Positions 16,924 through 34,961 of a DNA stretch of 53,761 nt are shown one piece after another (the stretch's first letter is position 1; every line of letters begins with the position of its first letter). Origin of the DNA: a virus. The DNA is taken from positions 1 through 53,761 of IMG/VR virus record IMGVR_UViG_3300050015_000366; one strand, written 5' to 3'. The notes below the pieces were generated by a model, which had not been told where the DNA came from, did not search any database, and saw only the letters and a list, made by a program, of their open reading frames with translations. Position numbers and translations under genes: made by a program.

Positions 16924-18645
16924 ATGACGTTCCACCTCAGCGACCACTCGGCGCCCGTCGACCTCTCGGCTTTGATCGACACGCGACTGCTCGTTCAGGC
17001 CAACAGCGGCGGCGGCAAGAGCTGGTGCTTGCGGCGCATCCTCGAGCAGACGCACGGGCGGGCGCAGCACCTGGTGATCGACCCAGAGGGCGAGTTTGCC
17101 AGCCTCCGGGAGCGGTTCGACTACGTGCTCGCCGCGCGCCAGGGCGGGGACACGGCCGCAGACCCGCGCTCCGCAAAGCTCCTGGCTGAACGCCTGCTCG
17201 AGCTCGGGGCCTCGGCCGTCCTCGACATCTACGAGCTGAAGGCGCACGAGCGCATCCGGTTCGTGCGCGCCTTCCTCGAGGCGCTGGTCGATGCCCCGAA
17301 GAAGCTCTGGCATCCGGCGCTGGTCGTGGTCGACGAGGCGCACGTCTACTGCCCGCAGGTAGGCGAGGCCGAGAGCGCCGGCGCCGTCATTGACCTGGCG
17401 ACGCGCGGCCGCAAGCGCGGGTTCTGCGCCATCCTCGCTACGCAGCGCCTCTCGAAGCTCCACAAGGACGCCGCGGCGGAGTGCAACAACAAGCTGATCG
17501 GGCGCACTGGCCTCGACGTCGACATGAAGCGCGCCGGCGACGAGCTCGGGTTTACCAAGGACCGGCTCCACGAGCTGCGCGAGCTGGACGCGGGGCACTT
17601 CTTCGCGTTCGGGCCGGCCATCTCCAGGAGCGTAACGAAGGTCCACGTCGGCGGCGTGCAGACGACGCACCCGAAGACGGGCAGCCGGATCGCGTTCACC
17701 GCGCCGCCACCCACAGAGAAGGTCCGCGCGCTGCTTCCGAAGCTGGCCGACCTTCCGGCGGAAGCCGAGGCCCGCCAGAAGACGGTCGAGGACCTCAAGC
17801 GTGAGCTGGCCACGGCGCGCCGCGAGCTGACGATCGCCAGGCAAGCCGCCCCGGCTCCGGCGCCGCCGAAGGTCGAGCGGATCGAGGTTCCGGTTCTGGT
17901 GGACGAAGATCGGGCAGGGCTCCGGGAAGTCGTCCAGTCGCTTCGATCGACCGCGGAAACACTGGGCGCTCGTGCGGACCAAATCGAGGGGGCGCTCCGC
18001 CGAGTAGGCCAGGCGCCGATGGAGCCGCGCGGACTGCGCCCGATGCCGAACGCGACGCGGCAAATCCAGCAGCACGTGGACGGCATGATTGCTCGCGCCG
18101 CGCGGAAGCCTGTGACGCCGTCGCTGCCGCGGCGAGCCGCCGAGTCGAACGGCAATCTCACCGGCCCCGAGCAGCGCATCCTCGACGCGATTGCGTGGCT
18201 CGCGGCGATCGGCGTCTCGGAACCCGAGCAGGCCGCCGTCGCCTTCCTCGCCGGCTACACCTACGGCGGCGGCGCCTTCAACAACCCGCGCGGCTCGCTC
18301 CGCACGAGGGGCCTAGTCGACTACCGGCCAGGGGAGCGCATCGTCCTGACGGTTGATGGTGCCGCCTCGGCCAACGCGCCCGACGCGCCGCTGACCGCCG
18401 AGGAGCTGCAGGCCCGCGTGCTGGCGCGCCTGCCGGGCCCGGAGCAGCGCCTCCTGCGGCCGCTCCTGGCCGCCTACCCTGACGCGCTCAGCAACGAGGA
18501 CCTGGCCGGCCAGGCGAACTACACGCCGAACGCAGGGGCGTTCAACAACCCGAGGGGGCGCCTGCGAAGCCTCGGCCTCATCGACTACCCGCGGCCCGGC
18601 TACGTCGTCGCGAAGCCGCTGCTGTTCCTGGAGGAACGCTCGTGA
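16924..18645 (+). CDS. HerA-like hexameric ATPase/translocase
   Basis: A 573-residue protein. Walker A is NSGGGKS (residues 27-33), preceded by LIDTRLLVQA. Then come LVIDPEGEF, as in the HerA/DUF87 family, Walker B ALVVVDEAHVYCP near residue 135, and the sensor FCAILATQRLSKL. The middle has a coiled coil (about 290-330). The C-terminal 150 residues hold two copies of a winged-helix unit (GGGAFNNPRGSLRTRGLVDY and NAGAFNNPRGRLRSLGLIDY). HerA pumps DNA for end resection with a nuclease. Here Mre11/Rad50-like genes are in the same operon; no NurA homologue is seen. Confidence 0.72.
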   Translation: MTFHLSDHSAPVDLSALIDTRLLVQANSGGGKSWCLRRILEQTHGRAQHLVIDPEGEFASLRERFDYVLAARQGGDTAADPRSAKLLAERLLELGASAVLDIYELKAHERIRFVRAFLEALVDAPKKLWHPALVVVDEAHVYCPQVGEAESAGAVIDLATRGRKRGFCAILATQRLSKLHKDAAAECNNKLIGRTGLDVDMKRAGDELGFTKDRLHELRELDAGHFFAFGPAISRSVTKVHVGGVQTTHPKTGSRIAFTAPPPTEKVRALLPKLADLPAEAEARQKTVEDLKRELATARRELTIARQAAPAPAPPKVERIEVPVLVDEDRAGLREVVQSLRSTAETLGARADQIEGALRRVGQAPMEPRGLRPMPNATRQIQQHVDGMIARAARKPVTPSLPRRAAESNGNLTGPEQRILDAIAWLAAIGVSEPEQAAVAFLAGYTYGGGAFNNPRGSLRTRGLVDYRPGERIVLTVDGAASANAPDAPLTAEELQARVLARLPGPEQRLLRPLLAAYPDALSNEDLAGQANYTPNAGAFNNPRGRLRSLGLIDYPRPGYVVAKPLLFLEERS

Positions 18646-20849
18646 GCGCCTACGCCCTCCGGCCCTATCAGCGTTCCGCCGCCGACGCCGGCGTGGCCTA
18701 CTTGACCAACCCGCGGCTGCGCGACCGGAACGGCATCATCGTCGCGCCGACGGGGTCAGGGAAATCGCTACTGGTCGCCAGCATCGCGACGGCGCTGCCG
18801 GGGCCGTGCATCGTCCTGCAGCCGACCAAGGAGATCCTCGAGCAGAACGCCGCGAAGCTCACAGCCTACGGCTTTCCGCCGGCCCTGTACTCGGCCAGCG
18901 TAGGCCGCAAGGAGATCGGGCGCATCACGCTCGCGACGTTCGGCAGCGTGGTCAAGCAGGCGGAGGCGTTCCGGGACTTCTCGTTCGTGCTCATCGATGA
19001 GTGCTTTGTCGCCGGAACGCTTGTTGATGGTCGCCCAATCGAGAGCGTTCTTCCCGGAGACGTCGTCACGACATACGACCACGAACGGGGGCAGGTCTCG
19101 TCCGGTCGCGTGCTTTCGACGATGAAGCGGCTGAGGCCGGAACGGCTCTGCCGCGTTACGGCTAGTGGCCAGCAAGTCTCGTGTACGCCAAATCATCCGT
19201 TTTTCGTCGAGGGCCACGGCTACACGCGAGCCGACAGCCTTCAGATCGGAGATCGCCTTGCCTACTGGAGTCTACCAACGACCACCGCTCCCGATAGTGC
19301 CGTGCACCCACTGCGGAGCGGACCTGAAGATCAAGAACGGGGCCCAGCATTCCTATTATCGGAAGACCGGGAGGGCTTTTCACCCGGAATGCGGGCGAAG
19401 ACAGGTCTCGGAGAACACGTCCCGGATTATGTCTGGGAGGACGCCGACCCTCAAGGCCAGGGCCGCGTCCAGCGAGCGGATGAAGCGCCGGAATCCGATG
19501 TCCAACCCGCTGATTCGCGCGAAGGTCTCCGGGTCACTGCGCAAGATCGGACACCGTCCGCGCGTTCGGGGCGGGAACGGGTGTCCGATGCCAGAGGCAC
19601 AGCGGTTGCTGCTGGCCCGACTCGGAGAGGGATGGGCCCTGGAATTCGTGGTGAAAACAGGACGTCGAGCCGAGGGGTATCCGCATTGCTACAAGATCGA
19701 CCTGGCGAACCCGGCCCTGATGATCGCGGTCGAGATCGACGGGGGGAGCCACAGTCTATCGAGGCGAGCGGAGGACGAACGGAAAACGGCGTTCTTGACC
19801 TCGCTCGGGTGGAGAGTGTGGAGGTTCTCGAACGAGAGCGTCCTAACCTCTTTGGAGCTGGTTGCGCGGGAGATTACGTTTACAACCTCGAAGTAGCCGA
19901 GCACAACAACTACTTCGCCAACGGTCTCCTCGTCCACAACTGCCACCAGGCCGTCTCGCCGAAGGGCGGCATGGTCAAGGCCTTCCTCGACGTGCTGCAG
20001 CACGCGAGAATTCTCGGATTCACAGCCACGCCGTTCCGGCTCGCGAGCAACTCCTGGGGCTCGACGCTGCGCTTCCTGACCCGGACCCGGCCTCGCATCT
20101 TCCGCGACGTCGTGCACGTCACGCAGATCGCCGAGCTGGTGCGCGGCGGCTTCCTATGCCCCGTCCAGTACGACGTGCGGCCGCTCATCAAACGGGACCG
20201 CCTTCGCTACAACAGCACAGGCGGCGACTACACCGACGCGTCGGTCCAGGCGGCCTTCGCGGAAGTCGGCTTCCCGGGCCAGCTGCGCCGAGGGGTCCAG
20301 CGCGTGCTCGACAGCGGCCGGCAGCACGCCCTGGTGTTCACCCGGTTCGTCGACGAGGCGCAGCAACTCGCGGCGGCGATCCCCGGCGCGGCGGTCGTCA
20401 CTGGCGAGACGCCAGCCGGCGAGCGGGCCCGGATTCTGAACGACTTCAAGGCTGGGCGGATCCGAGTCGTGGCGAACTGCGCTGTCCTACTCGTGGGCTT
20501 CGACTTCCCCGAGCTGGACGCCGTCGTGCTGGCCTCGCCGACCGTCTCCCTGGCCCGCTACTACCAGAGCGTCGGCCGCGGTATTCGCCCGGCGCCGGGC
20601 AAGCGTGATGCCCTGGTCGTGGACCTAGTGGGGACCGTCGAGCAGTTCGGCCACGTCGAGGATCTCGTGCTCGAGCCGGGCGGTGTGACAGGTGAGAAGT
20701 GGGTGGTCAAGAGCAGGGGGCGAGAGTTGACGAATTGCTACTACGGCGACCAGGCGAGCCAGGAGAAGCGGAAGAAGTCGGCGGAGTTCTGGAGCGGGCG
20801 GCGGGGTGGACAGGCGAGGTCACAGGCGGCGGACAACGGACGATTTTAG
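18642..20849 (+). CDS. SF2 DECH-box helicase interrupted by an intein
   Basis: A 735-residue precursor starting with GTG at a GTGA overlap. The N-extein (120 residues) has the Q-like LRPYQR and motif I APTGSGKS (35-42). The intein follows DE119-120 of motif II, and the C-extein resumes CHQ, restoring DECH. The C-extein (302 residues) holds motif III FTATPFR, motif IV ALVFTRFVDEAQQLA and motif VI YYQSVGRGIRP. The spliced protein would be 422 residues, the size of phage helicases related to UvsW and restriction R subunits. It probably remodels forks and recombination intermediates. Without splicing motif II is destroyed, so splicing is required. Confidence 0.85.
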   Translation: MSAYALRPYQRSAADAGVAYLTNPRLRDRNGIIVAPTGSGKSLLVASIATALPGPCIVLQPTKEILEQNAAKLTAYGFPPALYSASVGRKEIGRITLATFGSVVKQAEAFRDFSFVLIDECFVAGTLVDGRPIESVLPGDVVTTYDHERGQVSSGRVLSTMKRLRPERLCRVTASGQQVSCTPNHPFFVEGHGYTRADSLQIGDRLAYWSLPTTTAPDSAVHPLRSGPEDQERGPAFLLSEDREGFSPGMRAKTGLGEHVPDYVWEDADPQGQGRVQRADEAPESDVQPADSREGLRVTAQDRTPSARSGRERVSDARGTAVAAGPTRRGMGPGIRGENRTSSRGVSALLQDRPGEPGPDDRGRDRRGEPQSIEASGGRTENGVLDLARVESVEVLERERPNLFGAGCAGDYVYNLEVAEHNNYFANGLLVHNCHQAVSPKGGMVKAFLDVLQHARILGFTATPFRLASNSWGSTLRFLTRTRPRIFRDVVHVTQIAELVRGGFLCPVQYDVRPLIKRDRLRYNSTGGDYTDASVQAAFAEVGFPGQLRRGVQRVLDSGRQHALVFTRFVDEAQQLAAAIPGAAVVTGETPAGERARILNDFKAGRIRVVANCAVLLVGFDFPELDAVVLASPTVSLARYYQSVGRGIRPAPGKRDALVVDLVGTVEQFGHVEDLVLEPGGVTGEKWVVKSRGRELTNCYYGDQASQEKRKKSAEFWSGRRGGQARSQAADNGRF
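19248..19260 (+). promoter_or_regulatory. Internal ribosome binding site and TTG start of the nested endonuclease
   Basis: GGAG (19248-19251) precedes TTG (19258-19260) with a 6-nt spacer. The site lies inside intein codons for IGDRLA, that is, directly at the end of the N-terminal splicing domain where an in-frame endonuclease would normally begin. A GTG at 19165 opens the same frame earlier but lacks a good Shine-Dalgarno and would overlap block B. Confidence 0.6.
19258..19896 (+). CDS. DUF559/Vsr-like homing endonuclease nested in the +1 frame of the intein
   Basis: A 212-residue protein, entirely inside the helicase intein but in another frame. Residues 16-45 carry Cys residues (CTHC...PEC) like a zinc finger. 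Residues 58-108 have a NUMOD-like linker (RMKRRNPMSNPLIRAKVSGS, GHRPRVRGGNG). Residues 111-195 are the Vsr/DUF559-type nuclease: Glu113, Asp148 in YKIDLANP, Glu159 and Asp161-G-G-S-H165 in IAVEIDGGSHS, then LGWRVWRFSN. This is the EDxHD/Vsr-like nuclease class known from some phage homing enzymes. It stops at TAG 19894-19896, opposite intein block F. Expected role: cutting intein-less helicase alleles. It would be made by internal initiation on the same mRNA. Confidence 0.82.
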   Translation: MPTGVYQRPPLPIVPCTHCGADLKIKNGAQHSYYRKTGRAFHPECGRRQVSENTSRIMSGRTPTLKARAASSERMKRRNPMSNPLIRAKVSGSLRKIGHRPRVRGGNGCPMPEAQRLLLARLGEGWALEFVVKTGRRAEGYPHCYKIDLANPALMIAVEIDGGSHSLSRRAEDERKTAFLTSLGWRVWRFSNESVLTSLELVAREITFTTSK

Positions 20850-30209: not shown

Positions 30210-31991
30210 ATGGCCGTGCCCAACGTCGAAGGCACGGCTCAGATTCGCGCCGCCGCCGCACAACCGAAGACGCCCTCGGGCTTTCCGATCCCGCCAGCCA
30301 CCGGCCAGCCTCCCGACCCAGGACAGACCCCGAACGCGAGCGACGCCAGCCGCCTCCTAGGCCCGATTCGCTACCAGTTCCCCTACGGCACCAACGCCAC
30401 CTTCACGCCGCGCGGCACACTGCGCCCGTTCGACCAGTTGCGCCGGATCGCCGACGCCTGCGCCGAGGTGCGGTTCTGCATCGAGACGCGCAAGGACCAG
30501 ATCTGCTCGCTCTCCTGGGACATCACGCCGAAGGACAGCAAGGCGACCGGGCAGAGCCTCGACGGCGAGATCAAGGCGGCGCGCGCGTTCTTCTCGGCGC
30601 CGGATCCTGGTCAGCCGCTCTCGACGTGGTTCCGCCAGGCGATCGAAGAGATCCTGGTCACCGACGCCCTGGCCATCTACCGCCGCCGCTCGCGCGGCGG
30701 AGACCTGCTCGGCCTCGAGCTCGTCGACGGCGCGACCTTCAAGTGCCAACTCGCCCAGGACGGACGGACGCCGAAGCCGCCGCTCGTGGCCTACCGCCAG
30801 ATCATCTACGGGCAGCCCGTCGCCGGCGGCGACTGCACGATCGACGACCTGATCTACCGCCCGCGCACCGTGCGGACGTGGACGCCCTACGGCATGAGCC
30901 CGACCGAGGCGGTCATGCTCGCCGTGACGGCCACGCTCAATCGCCAGGCCTTCGACGTCCTGCAATACACCGAGGGCACGCTGCCCGAGTCGTGGGCGAC
31001 GGTGCCGGAGTCCTGGCAGCCGAAGGACATCGACGAGTTCCAGACGTTCTTCGATTCCATGATGTCGGGGAACCTCACCCAGCGCAGCCGCGTGAAGTTC
31101 ATGCCGGCGGGCTCGAAGATCGAGTCGATGCGCCTGCGCGACTTTCAGGCCGGCTGGTACGAATGGTGGTTGAAGCTGATCGCGGCCGCCTTCGCCGTGC
31201 CGCCGTCCGAGCTGGGGTTCACGAACGACGTGAACCGAGCCACGTCGAAGAGCCAGGAGGACGTGGCCTTCCGCCGCGGCGTACGCCCGCTCGGGTCGTT
31301 CCTCAAAGAAATCTTCGACGACGTGCTCGCACGAGACCTGCGGCTTCCGCACCTCGAGTTCGTGTGGAAGAACACCGAGACCGAGGACCGCGCGAAGCAG
31401 GCGGCCGTCGACGAGATCCGCGTGCGCACCGGGATCGACAGCATCGACGAGATCCGCGTGCGCGACGGCCTGCCGATGATCGGCATGGGGAACGCCATCT
31501 TCACGCCGACCGGGCCGCTGTTCGTCGAGGATCTGATCGCGGACGTCGACGACGACCCGACGACCACGGAGACGAAGCCGGCTCCGGCCGCGCCCGCAAC
31601 GGCCACGCCGAAACCGTCCGCGCCGGCGCCGGAGCCAACGCCGCACACGGAAGGCGAAGCGCTGGACGGCCTCGAGGGCCAGGCCAAGGCGCTGGCGGCC
31701 GACCTCCGGCATTGGCGCACCGTGGCGCTCAAGGCGGCCAAGGCCGGCGCGCCCTGCAAGCCGTTCGTGAGCGCCGCGATCCCGCACGACGTCCACCACG
31801 AGATCGAGACAGCCCTGAAGGCCGCGACGACGCCGGCAGCCGTGCGCGCGCTGTTCGCCGAGATCGAGAAGCGCAAGCCGACGCTGCTCGAGCAGACGCG
31901 GATGCGTCGCAGGGTGCGCACAATGGCGGCCGACATTTTCCGGGCGCAAGGCGCCGCCCTGGTCGCGCACCTCGAGGAGCCCGCGTCATGA
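30210..31991 (+). CDS. Portal protein
   Basis: A 593-residue protein from the ATG at 30210; the frame is open from 30036 (TTG), which would add 58 Arg/Ala-rich residues, so the start is uncertain. Core features are those of HK97/SPP1-type portals: CAEVRFCIETRKDQICSLSW, the helical AFFSAPDPGQPLSTWFRQAIEEILVTDALAIYRR, LVDGATFKCQLAQDG, YGMSPTEAVMLAVTATLNRQ, and a clip/crown region FAVPPSELGFTNDVN. The C-terminal 150 residues are a Pro/Ala linker plus helices. It forms the dodecameric ring through which DNA is packaged. The stop overlaps the MuF gene start. Confidence 0.82.
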   Translation: MAVPNVEGTAQIRAAAAQPKTPSGFPIPPATGQPPDPGQTPNASDASRLLGPIRYQFPYGTNATFTPRGTLRPFDQLRRIADACAEVRFCIETRKDQICSLSWDITPKDSKATGQSLDGEIKAARAFFSAPDPGQPLSTWFRQAIEEILVTDALAIYRRRSRGGDLLGLELVDGATFKCQLAQDGRTPKPPLVAYRQIIYGQPVAGGDCTIDDLIYRPRTVRTWTPYGMSPTEAVMLAVTATLNRQAFDVLQYTEGTLPESWATVPESWQPKDIDEFQTFFDSMMSGNLTQRSRVKFMPAGSKIESMRLRDFQAGWYEWWLKLIAAAFAVPPSELGFTNDVNRATSKSQEDVAFRRGVRPLGSFLKEIFDDVLARDLRLPHLEFVWKNTETEDRAKQAAVDEIRVRTGIDSIDEIRVRDGLPMIGMGNAIFTPTGPLFVEDLIADVDDDPTTTETKPAPAAPATATPKPSAPAPEPTPHTEGEALDGLEGQAKALAADLRHWRTVALKAAKAGAPCKPFVSAAIPHDVHHEIETALKAATTPAAVRALFAEIEKRKPTLLEQTRMRRRVRTMAADIFRAQGAALVAHLEEPAS

Positions 31992-33514
31992 CGCCCGAGC
32001 AGCTCCGCCACCTGCTCGTGACGTTCCCGTGGGACAAGTGGGACGCGGAGTGGAAGCAAAAGTACGAGCCGCTCCACCGCGAGCTGCTCACCCTGGGCGG
32101 CGCCGCGGGCGCGACCGAGGCCGGGGGCGCGTTCGCGATCGACGACCCGATCGTGTCGGCGCTCAGCGAGCGCTACGTCGGCGAGCTCATCACGGAGCTC
32201 CAAGGCACGACGCGCGACGCGGTCTCCGCGCTCATCGAACGGACGATTGAAGACGGCCAGGCGGCGGCCTCTGGCGCGACGCCGTTCGAGCTGGGCACGG
32301 CGATCCGGGACGCGGTGCGCGAAGAGTTCTCCGGCTACGAGCGCTGGCGCGCGGACCGGATCGCCCGCACGGAATGCCTCCTACCTGAGACGCAGGTTGA
32401 CGCTGCTGTGGTGCGGGCAGCTCACAGACGGCCGTATGAAGGTCAGGTGGTCGAGGTCGAGACTGCCTCTGGCCGCCAGTTCACCGCAACCCCGAATCAC
32501 CCGATGCTCACGAGCTCTGGATGGCTTCCGTCTGGTCTCCTGGCAGAAGGCCACGATCTCGTCTGCGACAGTTTCCAAGAGCACCATGGTGCGACGGGCG
32601 ATCAGGATGTACAGCGACACCCATCCACGATCGCGCAGGTATTTGATGCGGTCGAGGCAGTAGGGGTCACGGAACGGCGTCGTTGTGCCGATCCAGACTT
32701 CCACGGCGACGGGCGGAAGGGCTATGTCGATGTTGCGTGTCCCAACGGGACGCTGACGCTCGGCAGATTCTCCGCGATCGACCAGCCACTGATGGAGTCG
32801 TTCTTCGCCCCATCCGATCAGGCGCGTGCGCGTTTCTGCGGCCGATGTAAACGCCTTCTCCCGATTGAGCAGACGTTGTGCCTCTGCGGCGTTTCTCGTG
32901 GCGACACCGGCCTCGCGCAGCCTGCGCTCGATAGCAGTGTTCGAGACGCCAAACCGCGCACAGAGGTCGACGACGGACTCGCCGTTCATGTAGCGCCTGA
33001 CGATTTGGTCAGAGGGCAGTCCCCGCAGGGTCCGCGGATGCTCGCCGCGAGCGAACCTGGCCAGGGCAGCATCGGACAGGCTGCGTTGAACGCCGGCTCG
33101 ACGAACGACATCAACCACCCAGTCAGCCTTGACGCCAAGCTCTCTGGCTATAGCCGTCGAGCCGAGCCCGGACAAATACAACTTGATCGCGTTCTCTCGG
33201 TGCGCATCAGGCAGTGGTCTGGACATGTGTTCAACCTCACGACCAGTGACGGTTACTTCGCCATTGCGGGTGGATTATACAGCGGGAACACGGCGATAGT
33301 CTACAACCAAGGCGCAGCGCTCGCCTACCACCAGAACGGGATCACGCACGTGGTGATCAGCGACGGACAGGGCGAGAACGGATGCGAGGAGTGCGAAGCC
33401 GTCGACGGCGAGATCTGGACCATCGAAGAGTTCCTGGCCGAACCGACTGCCCACCCGAACTGCACCAGGTCGGCGAGCCCGGCCGAGGCTGACGAGGCCG
33501 AAGAGGCCGCATAG
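31988..33514 (+). CDS. MuF/SPP1 gp7-like minor head protein interrupted by an intein
   Basis: A 508-residue precursor starting at an ATGA overlap with the portal gene. The N-extein (129 residues) ends RADRIARTE; the C-extein (74 residues) begins TAIVYNQGAALAYHQNG and continues ENGCEECEAVDGEIW...HPNC. Joined, IARTET..YNQG...Y plus the CxxC and HPNC elements give the typical MuF-domain motif. The spliced protein would be 203 residues, which is short for the family. Such proteins sit at the portal and help head assembly or DNA ejection. Confidence 0.83.
   Translation: MTPEQLRHLLVTFPWDKWDAEWKQKYEPLHRELLTLGGAAGATEAGGAFAIDDPIVSALSERYVGELITELQGTTRDAVSALIERTIEDGQAAASGATPFELGTAIRDAVREEFSGYERWRADRIARTECLLPETQVDAAVVRAAHRRPYEGQVVEVETASGRQFTATPNHPMLTSSGWLPSGLLAEGHDLVCDSFQEHHGATGDQDVQRHPSTIAQVFDAVEAVGVTERRRCADPDFHGDGRKGYVDVACPNGTLTLGRFSAIDQPLMESFFAPSDQARARFCGRCKRLLPIEQTLCLCGVSRGDTGLAQPALDSSVRDAKPRTEVDDGLAVHVAPDDLVRGQSPQGPRMLAASEPGQGSIGQAALNAGSTNDINHPVSLDAKLSGYSRRAEPGQIQLDRVLSVRIRQWSGHVFNLTTSDGYFAIAGGLYSGNTAIVYNQGAALAYHQNGITHVVISDGQGENGCEECEAVDGEIWTIEEFLAEPTAHPNCTRSASPAEADEAEEAA
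32375..33289 (+). mobile_element. Intein in the MuF-like head protein (305 residues)
   Basis: It begins with Cys1 (CLLPETQVDAAVVRAAHRRP, block A), then EGQVVEVETASGRQF and block B ATPNHPMLTSSGW. Its end has LDRVLSVRIRQWSGHVFNLT (block F) and YFAIAGGLYSGN (block G), with Thr as the +1 residue. The penultimate residue is Gly instead of the usual His. The middle of this frame contains no endonuclease; the opposite strand codes for one over nearly the full length. Insertion at ARTE/TA lies in the most conserved part of the MuF motif. Confidence 0.87.
32381..33226 (-). CDS. HTH plus PD-(D/E)XK-like homing endonuclease, antisense inside the intein
   Basis: A 281-residue protein, fully inside the MuF intein on the other strand. 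Residues 9-47 (RENAIKLYLSGLGSTAIARELGVK) and 72-108 (DQIVRRYMNGESVVDLCARFGVSNTAIE) are two resolvase-like HTH units. Residues 127-225 form a nuclease of the Vsr/DUF559 type: Glu141/142 in GWGEERLHQWLVDRG, Asp167 in VGTRNIDIAL, Glu176 in VAVEVWIG, then RIKYLRDRGWVSLYIL. The tail (EHRVIRGCGELAARGSLDLD) resembles free-standing phage homing enzymes as I remember them. Shine-Dalgarno GAGGT is 7-8 nt before the ATG at 33226. The expected target is the intein-less MuF gene. Confidence 0.8.
   Translation of the reverse strand: MSRPLPDAHRENAIKLYLSGLGSTAIARELGVKADWVVDVVRRAGVQRSLSDAALARFARGEHPRTLRGLPSDQIVRRYMNGESVVDLCARFGVSNTAIERRLREAGVATRNAAEAQRLLNREKAFTSAAETRTRLIGWGEERLHQWLVDRGESAERQRPVGTRNIDIALPPVAVEVWIGTTTPFRDPYCLDRIKYLRDRGWVSLYILIARRTMVLLETVADEIVAFCQETRRKPSRAREHRVIRGCGELAARGSLDLDHLTFIRPSVSCPHHSSVNLRLR
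33274..33303 (-). promoter_or_regulatory. Antisense promoter of the intein endonuclease
   Basis: On the minus strand a perfect -10 TATAAT lies at 33279-33274 and a -35-like TAGACT (4 of 6 matches) at 33303-33298, with an 18-nt spacer. The -10 is embedded in intein codons for GLY, and the -35 in the C-extein codons IVY. The predicted start is near 33267, about 40 nt before the ATG at 33226. A perfect TATAAT is rare in this GC-rich sequence. Confidence 0.6.
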
Positions 33515-33524
33515 GAGCACGCAC

Positions 33525-34961
33525 ATGGCAGGACATCTCGAGCACGCAAAGTCGCAGACCGCGCCCGTCGAGCCGCCCGTTCGGCTGCTGATTCCAATCG
33601 TGAAGGTGGACGCGACGAAGCGCCTGGTGCGCGGCGTCGCGACGGCTGAAGTGCTCGACAGCCAGGGCGAGATCGTGGACTACGAGTCCGCGAAGGACGC
33701 CTTCTCGCGCTGGCGCGGCAATGTGCGCGAGATGCACCAGCCGAAGGCCGTCGGCAAGCGGACGGACGTCACCTTCGACGACGCGACGAAGCAGATCGTG
33801 GTCGAGAGCTATATCAGCAAGGGCGCGCCGGACACGTGGGAGAAGGTCCAGGACGGCACGCTCTCGATGTACAGCATCGGCGGGACCGCACGCGAACGCC
33901 GGCCGGAGAAGTGCGGCGATGCCGTCGCATCGCGCCTGTTCGTCAAGGACCTCACCGAGCTCTCGCTCGTCGACAACGGCGCCTGCCCGGTCGCGACCTT
34001 CGACCTGGTCAAGGCCGTCGATGGCCAGCCGACCGAGGTCCAGCCCGAGGATCCGTCCGGCGAGGCGGAGCCGGCCGCCGCGGACACCACGAAGCAGGCC
34101 GCGGACGTCGTGCCTGAACCCTGGGACCTGACGCGCGCCCTCGCCGTGATCGCGCAGCTCGAGGAGCTCCTGGCCGACGAGGCCTGGTCCGCGCGCTATT
34201 CCAGCGATCCGGCCGTGGCCGTGGCCGAGCGGGCCCAGGTGGAGATGCTGCGAACCGCCATCGAGGCCGTCGTGGCGTTCTTCCTCGCCGAGCACGATGA
34301 GCAGTTCACGCTGCCGGCCGCGGGTGACGCCGAGGCGGTCGCGATGTTCGCCCGTGCGGTCATTGCCAAGGCTGGCGCGCGGAACAGCAAGAAGGACCTC
34401 GAAACGATTCAGAAGGTGCACGACCACGCCGTCACGCTCGGCGCGACGTGTGCCACCACGGAAAAGCTGGCGACGCAGGTTGCCACCCCGGCCGCGCTTC
34501 CTCCCGCGGCCCCGGCTCCCGAGCCGACGACACCCGCGTCGCCAGCCCCTCTCGTGAAGGCGGAGGACAGCCCGGTCGTCAAGGCCCTCCAGACCGACCT
34601 CGCACAGGCCACGGACGCGCTCGTGAAGACCACGGCCACGCTCACGGAGCAGCAGGCGACGATCGCCGCGCAAGCGGGATCGATCGCGAAGCTCGAGGCG
34701 TGGGTCGAGACCTTCAAGCAGCAGCCGTTGCCGGGCGGCCCGGTCGCGCGGGTCGTGACGGTCGAGAAGACGCTGGGCGGACCGCCGGCTGGCGGCGGCG
34801 CCGAGATCGACCCCGCCGCGATGGAGGCCGCGTTCAAGGCCCTCATCGCCGCGGCCCCGACGGCGGTCGAGAAGGACCGGATCGTCCAGCAGTACATCAA
34901 GTGGCAGCAGGACAGCGGCGTGACCGCGGTGAAGCTCGAGCGTCGAGCCCACCTGCAGTAA
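33525..34961 (+). CDS. HK97-type prohead protease fused to a scaffold-like region
   Basis: A 478-residue protein. The first 170 residues have the prohead serine protease pattern: LVRGVATAEVLDSQGEIVD, a catalytic His in VREMHQPKAVGK, a Ser in DGTLSMYSIGG, and TELSLVDNGACP. The rest is Ala/Glu-rich with coiled coil (QTDLAQATDALVKTTATLTEQQA) and a short C-terminal helix, like a scaffold/delta domain. A fused protease-scaffold makes sense because no separate scaffold gene lies before the capsid gene. It would mature the prohead by cutting itself and the capsid N-terminus. Confidence 0.8.
   Translation: MAGHLEHAKSQTAPVEPPVRLLIPIVKVDATKRLVRGVATAEVLDSQGEIVDYESAKDAFSRWRGNVREMHQPKAVGKRTDVTFDDATKQIVVESYISKGAPDTWEKVQDGTLSMYSIGGTARERRPEKCGDAVASRLFVKDLTELSLVDNGACPVATFDLVKAVDGQPTEVQPEDPSGEAEPAAADTTKQAADVVPEPWDLTRALAVIAQLEELLADEAWSARYSSDPAVAVAERAQVEMLRTAIEAVVAFFLAEHDEQFTLPAAGDAEAVAMFARAVIAKAGARNSKKDLETIQKVHDHAVTLGATCATTEKLATQVATPAALPPAAPAPEPTTPASPAPLVKAEDSPVVKALQTDLAQATDALVKTTATLTEQQATIAAQAGSIAKLEAWVETFKQQPLPGGPVARVVTVEKTLGGPPAGGGAEIDPAAMEAAFKALIAAAPTAVEKDRIVQQYIKWQQDSGVTAVKLERRAHLQ

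Follow-up and report, generated by a model that had tools for sequence, protein, structure and literature searches.

How does an intein spread when the frame that it splices holds no endonuclease? The question is raised by a MuF-like minor capsid gene in the IMG/VR virus record IMGVR_UViG_3300050015_000366, whose 53,761 nucleotides (nt) form the window analysed here. The usual view is that an intein's endonuclease is either an in-frame domain or, where the intein is split, a neighbour of it. The MuF intein is very probably a mobile intein of another kind, with its homing endonuclease encoded by an autonomous gene on the antisense strand that overlaps the splicing domain codon for codon. Its relatives preserve both frames and share out the constraint between them; the signals for the antisense gene are over-represented and precise empty alleles occur. 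The antisense product, a DNA-cutting enzyme as judged from its sequence, probably spreads the intein.

An intein and a predicted nuclease gene on opposite strands

Sequence marks place the window element among class 1 Hint inteins, with splicing activity predicted. The original prediction, made from the DNA letters, had drawn its limits by Cys1, the block B motif TPNHP and a GN/T junction; these coordinates proved exact, and the intein N-terminal family TIGR01445 matches (2.7e-7), as does Intein_splicing (PF14890) at 1.7e-4, below the curated cut-off. The MuF part after the intein matches PF04233 (0.003) and TIGR01641 (2e-4). In an AlphaFold2 model the Hint ends reach predicted local distance difference test (pLDDT) values of 90-98 and give Foldseek matches to RecA/RadA/VMA inteins; most of the middle is of low confidence, residues 172-260 falling below 50. 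The absence of an endonuclease from the splicing frame was borne out, Pfam and NCBIfam finding none between blocks B and F of the window intein. Class 1 Hint marks recur across the family (C1 in 97% and H42 in 100% of 108 aligned members); the rows were picked for N followed by C, S or T, so their 100% at those positions is by construction. A group I or II intron with an antisense homing gene is rejected, as Rfam gives no ribozyme or RNA match in 31900-33700 at E<=0.1.

The 281-codon antisense gene lies where it had been predicted, inside the intein limits by 6 nt at one end and 63 nt at the other, and both of its expected helix-turn-helix (HTH) units are matched by Pfam (Table 1). The Vsr/DUF559-like core, also proposed beforehand, is missed by Pfam in the window protein alone and becomes visible in the family profile, which matches PDB 3hrl at 4.5e-6, the I-Bth0305I homing-endonuclease domain 3r3p at 1.2e-4 and Vsr weakly. 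Pfam MTES_1575 matches eight of 14 family members, and DUF559 also matches several. The model of the protein has a mean pLDDT of 88, and 3r3p is the second-ranked Foldseek match (prob 0.99, TMt 0.57, but E 0.05). Pattern scans worked on narrower alignments, alignment A1 being too divergent. Even in very divergent members N165, D167 and E176 vary little or not at all, E141 is conserved alongside them, and R193 is invariant in the alignments. Profile and model both indicate that the antisense product is related to a known homing-endonuclease catalytic domain, the I-Bth0305I/Vsr core; because of this relation we infer that it cleaves DNA.

Table 1. Features of the MuF and helicase inteins in the window
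Feature	Position	Strand	Remarks
MuF-like minor capsid gene, intein host	31988-33514	+	single open frame; portal gene upstream
Intein, 305 amino acids, Cys1 to GN/T	32375-33289	+	in frame with MuF gene
Intein Cys1 codon	32375-32377	+	
Block B TPNHP	32489-32503	+	exactly opposite antisense RVIRG
Block F GHVFNL	33221-33238	+	doubles as antisense start codon and Shine-Dalgarno-like site
Intein C-terminal junction GN/T	33284-33292	+	
Antisense nuclease gene, 281 codons, ATG	32381-33226	-	codon for codon opposite intein frame
First HTH unit, residues 10-43	33098-33199	-	HTH_23 2.6e-6
Second HTH unit, residues 74-104	32915-33007	-	HTH_28 4.2e-8
Vsr/EDxHD-like nuclease core (predicted), residues 141-210	32597-32806	-	profile and Foldseek
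Antisense ATG, complement of block F His codon CAT	33224-33226	-	
Shine-Dalgarno-like GAGG	33235-33238	-	8 nt before ATG
-10 hexamer TATAAT in block G codons	33274-33279	-	47 nt before antisense ATG
Weak -35-like TAGACT in C-extein	33298-33303	-	18 nt upstream of -10; one promoter-like site, 10/12 matches
Antisense stop, complement of block A Leu3 codon CTA	32381-32383	-	
Helicase gene with second intein	18642-20849		
Second intein	19002-19940		
Zinc-finger/DUF559 nuclease reading frame inside second intein	19165-19896	+	same strand, +1 frame; PF04480 1.1e-10

A widespread arrangement

Homologues of the 281-residue protein are plentiful. A tblastn search with it returned 116 phage records; the best-scoring full-length matches and all 19 that were fetched lie antisense inside MuF/head genes or, once, a dCMP deaminase gene. 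The phages with full-length matches infect Gordonia, Salmonella (Jerseyvirus), Pseudomonas, Vibrio, Haemophilus and others, and the weaker tail of the search consists of HTH-only genes in Bacillus and Burkholderia phages. Since the antisense open reading frame (ORF) is found antisense inside MuF/head genes of so many phages, it is not a product of chance.

Scanning IMG/VR and GTDB genomes with antisense-protein alignments and adding the hits to the tblastn set gave 191 phage and bacterial loci, all chosen through the antisense protein only. The codon-for-codon opposite, sense frame is open in every one of the 191, with 0 stops, and in 153 of 153 once near-copies are collapsed. Host codon usage would lead one to expect ~576 sense stops in 109 loci, about five per locus; none was observed. 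The other two antisense frames carry stops in all 180 loci first examined. Both intein ends are present in 167 of the 191 loci (~87%), Intein_splicing matches 67 of 72 sense ORFs, and most host genes encode MuF, VG15 or minor capsid protein 2. The sense and antisense arrangement is a widespread class, not a single oddity. It is likely that these loci make up a large, unrecognised class of mobile inteins, in which a sense splicing domain is paired with a complete antisense nuclease gene whose -10, Shine-Dalgarno, start and stop signals are placed in the synonymous codons of the splicing blocks.

Further hosts of inteins of this type are a dCMP deaminase gene (L009) and genes that fuse UDG with DNA polymerase A (L178, L162). 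One single ORF, a portal-MuF fusion (L118:2857-6840), contains two inteins, a Hint/LAGLIDADG one in the portal part and an antisense-nuclease one in the MuF part; another intein-bearing MuF protein (L177:1138-4998) has a C-terminal ADP-ribosyltransferase-like domain (PF03496 1.4e-12). The depositors of Escherichia phage fEg-Eco06 (PQ141284.1) annotated a 'minor head protein with inserted intein', and the Salmonella PK1 record (L006) has antisense hypothetical proteins annotated at the nuclease position.

Constraint is divided between the strands

The ratio of substitutions at sense position 1 to those at position 3, taken over 20 disjoint pairs, is 1.58 for the middle of the intein, against 0.67 for its N-block, 0.71 for its C-block and 0.50 for the extein. 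In the middle it is thus the third positions of antisense codons that change, and in the intein ends those of sense codons; because the ratios differ in this way, the middle is seen to be constrained as an antisense protein and the ends as a splicing domain. The antisense frame is not freely interrupted, and mid-intein it is the better conserved of the two. Compared with its own clade, the window gives 1.24-1.48 in the middle; its C-block mostly agrees with the general pattern, its N-block less clearly.

Two places are conserved in both frames on the dual conservation map: block B TPNHP opposite antisense RVIRG, and sense FHGD opposite the nuclease motif VAVE. FHGD(G), intein residues 109-113 (32699-32713), is conserved beyond the demands of VAVE, the antisense third positions being fixed, and is possibly a functional motif of this Hint subfamily.

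Expression signals in the splicing codons

The antisense gene begins and ends within codons of the splicing blocks. The block F His, whose complement supplies the start, is CAT in 92 of 109 loci, about 41 being expected, and the block B His shows the reverse codon choice (CAC in 84/94). A Shine-Dalgarno 4-mer is present in 90 of the 109 loci against 31.6 expected, and the antisense stop falls inside the intein in 103. The window's TATAAT at 33279-33274(-) is its only one, both strands counted. The hexamer occurs in 35 of the 109 loci; it appears in 2.6% of synonymous controls, and 3.7 loci would be expected with the inteins' own N-block codon usage. The full TGnTATAAT is found in 18 loci (0.6 expected). 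Most of the -10 signals lie at nt 7-15, counted from the intein end, and the excess is present in every G+C class. None of 16 canonical control inteins has TATAAT at that place. An artefact of composition is ruled out for the -10 signal by the N-block codon-usage control and the G+C strata.

Start, Shine-Dalgarno, -10 and stop signals all exceed synonymous controls. They are written into the intein's own codons, and the nuclease would therefore be expressible independently of the host gene that was invaded. Such a sequence signature of promoter, Shine-Dalgarno site and start inside splicing codons supports independent antisense expression.

Probable mobility

Intein-free alleles are found in close relatives of other family members. 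In intein-free Pseudomonas phages the gene is 95-97% identical and shorter by exactly 807 nt; the Gordonia alleles are shorter by exactly 948 nt and the Salmonella alleles by 816 nt. Host junctions of the empty alleles are seamless in all three phage groups, in each of which the insertion is in frame and its removal restores the host gene. Near-identical inteins lie in differing exteins (L014/L078, L134/L135). In the nuclease tree the RTE/T site needs two label changes, compared with 7.8 in shuffles; as judged from this tree, nuclease lineage tracks insertion site.

Two Gordonia phages (L010/L016) have near-identical MuF exteins with very different antisense-nuclease inteins at the same site, which is a case of intein replacement.

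Proposed model and alternatives

The original prediction, an intein that homes with an independently expressed antisense enzyme, is supported. We propose, from sequence, how splicing, transcription, cleavage and homing of the MuF intein system would be linked. The sense frame would give a MuF precursor, spliced by the Hint halves (approximately residues 1-125 and 266-305), with the ~140 intein residues between them a mostly unstructured by-product. The two-HTH, Vsr/EDxHD-like nuclease would be made from its own -10, Shine-Dalgarno site and ATG in the synonymous codons of blocks F and G, its frame ending at intein codon 3. During co-infection the nuclease would cleave the insertion site in MuF genes that lack the intein, and their repair would copy the intein together with the antisense gene.

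Several observations weigh against this model. The catalytic His and the second Asp of EDxHD are not clearly present. The window's -10 hexamer has no extended TGn, its -35 is weak and outside the intein, and the set of canonical control inteins is small (n=16). Within the middle, FHGD (109-112) shows conservation in the sense frame, hence part of the middle may matter for splicing. At the window's own site, a search with the joined MuF protein returned a near-identical contig only and no intein-free allele.

Sense coding in a genome rich in G+C might have left the antisense frame open by chance, and long antisense ORFs are indeed common in this window. Profile homologues, however, occur in AT-rich as well as GC-rich phages, only a single antisense register is open, its product folds at the confidence given above, and the start, Shine-Dalgarno, -10 and stop signals are over-represented; the codon-position data, with the middle constrained in the antisense frame, refute a chance ORF, and we give this explanation virtually no credence. 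A free-standing homing gene could instead have entered, in antisense orientation, an intein that was dead or else fractured and trans-splicing, the sense frame being incidental. EDxHD-type nucleases are reportedly known beside split inteins, Dassa et al. being said to have described in 2009 fractured genes whose split inteins come with a free-standing Vsr/EDxHD-like endonuclease. The sense frame is nonetheless unbroken in all 191 loci, where several stops per locus would be expected, and in the intein ends the changes that accumulate are at sense third positions. This origin is accordingly very improbable, and a fractured gene with a split intein is rejected, the sense frame running uninterrupted between the halves.

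It is less far-fetched, but still unlikely, that the antisense protein controls MuF expression, as a DNA-binding regulator or as a nuclease no longer able to cleave, with the intein persisting for other reasons. The two HTH units would suit such a role, the exact EDxHD residues are not confirmed, and an antisense transcript could silence MuF. Against it stand the near-invariance of N165, D167 and E176 across very divergent members, presence and absence at precise sites together with recent transfer, and a nuclease lineage that follows the insertion site.

In an intein with an antisense homing endonuclease, selection acts on the two strands of a single element simultaneously, block B lying over a conserved nuclease strand and block F over a start codon. 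This is a natural case of dual coding taken to an extreme, in which the division of labour can be read. The arrangement would account for the ability of a nuclease located in a late capsid gene to follow its own timetable of expression. It also means that many nucleases, as yet uncharacterised, are concealed in the unannotated antisense ORFs of Salmonella, Pseudomonas, Gordonia and Vibrio phages. Since collections already contain phages that have the intein and phages that lack it, homing is directly testable.

A second intein in the same phage

The helicase gene of the same phage contains another intein, with a nuclease frame of its own (Table 1). The same +1 arrangement occurs in helicases of Vibrio phages CP-T1, K391 and 1.194.O and of Pseudomonas phage MR14 (L260-L263); relatives of this nuclease were found in these named phages and none in viral_contigs. 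In neither intein of this phage is the nuclease in the splicing frame: one has it antisense, the other in the +1 frame.

Comparison with known systems

The original prediction knew of no described case, and our literature search found no antisense or out-of-frame intein nuclease either; a preprint on non-canonical actinophage inteins (10.1101/2025.01.02.630785), not read here, may cover part of this, perhaps the Gordonia MuF cases.

Canonical large inteins, with in-frame LAGLIDADG or HNH domains, share with the MuF intein the Hint blocks, a nuclease gene within the intein and precise occupied and empty alleles. In the MuF intein, by contrast, the nuclease comes from a gene in the opposite orientation that overlaps the splicing blocks, and splicing does not release it. 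Fractured genes resemble it in the family relation of the nuclease, the association with inteins and the occurrence in phage genes; unlike theirs, the MuF intein is continuous, and its nuclease gene is antisense and overlapping rather than lying between halves. I-Bth0305I, an EDxHD homing endonuclease (PDB 3r3p) from a mobile group I intron (PMC3943268), is comparable in its catalytic domain, by profile and fold, and in having extra DNA-binding parts. It differs in its intron origin, and its catalytic residue set may not be identical to that of the antisense nuclease.

In ShiLan, out-of-frame HNH insertions are found on the same strand and no splicing domain was found (PMC11855218). The likeness is that an open insertion conceals a nuclease in a different frame; the same-strand HNH without a splicing domain sets ShiLan apart from the MuF intein, and the phage's second intein, in the helicase gene, resembles it more closely. 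Nuclear group I introns of Didymium have antisense homing genes with a proposed promoter of their own (PMC9548176), and so match the MuF intein in having a homing gene antisense to a self-splicing element. Their homing gene, however, lies in a peripheral RNA segment and does not overlap the catalytic part, and the element that carries it is an RNA intron rather than an intein.
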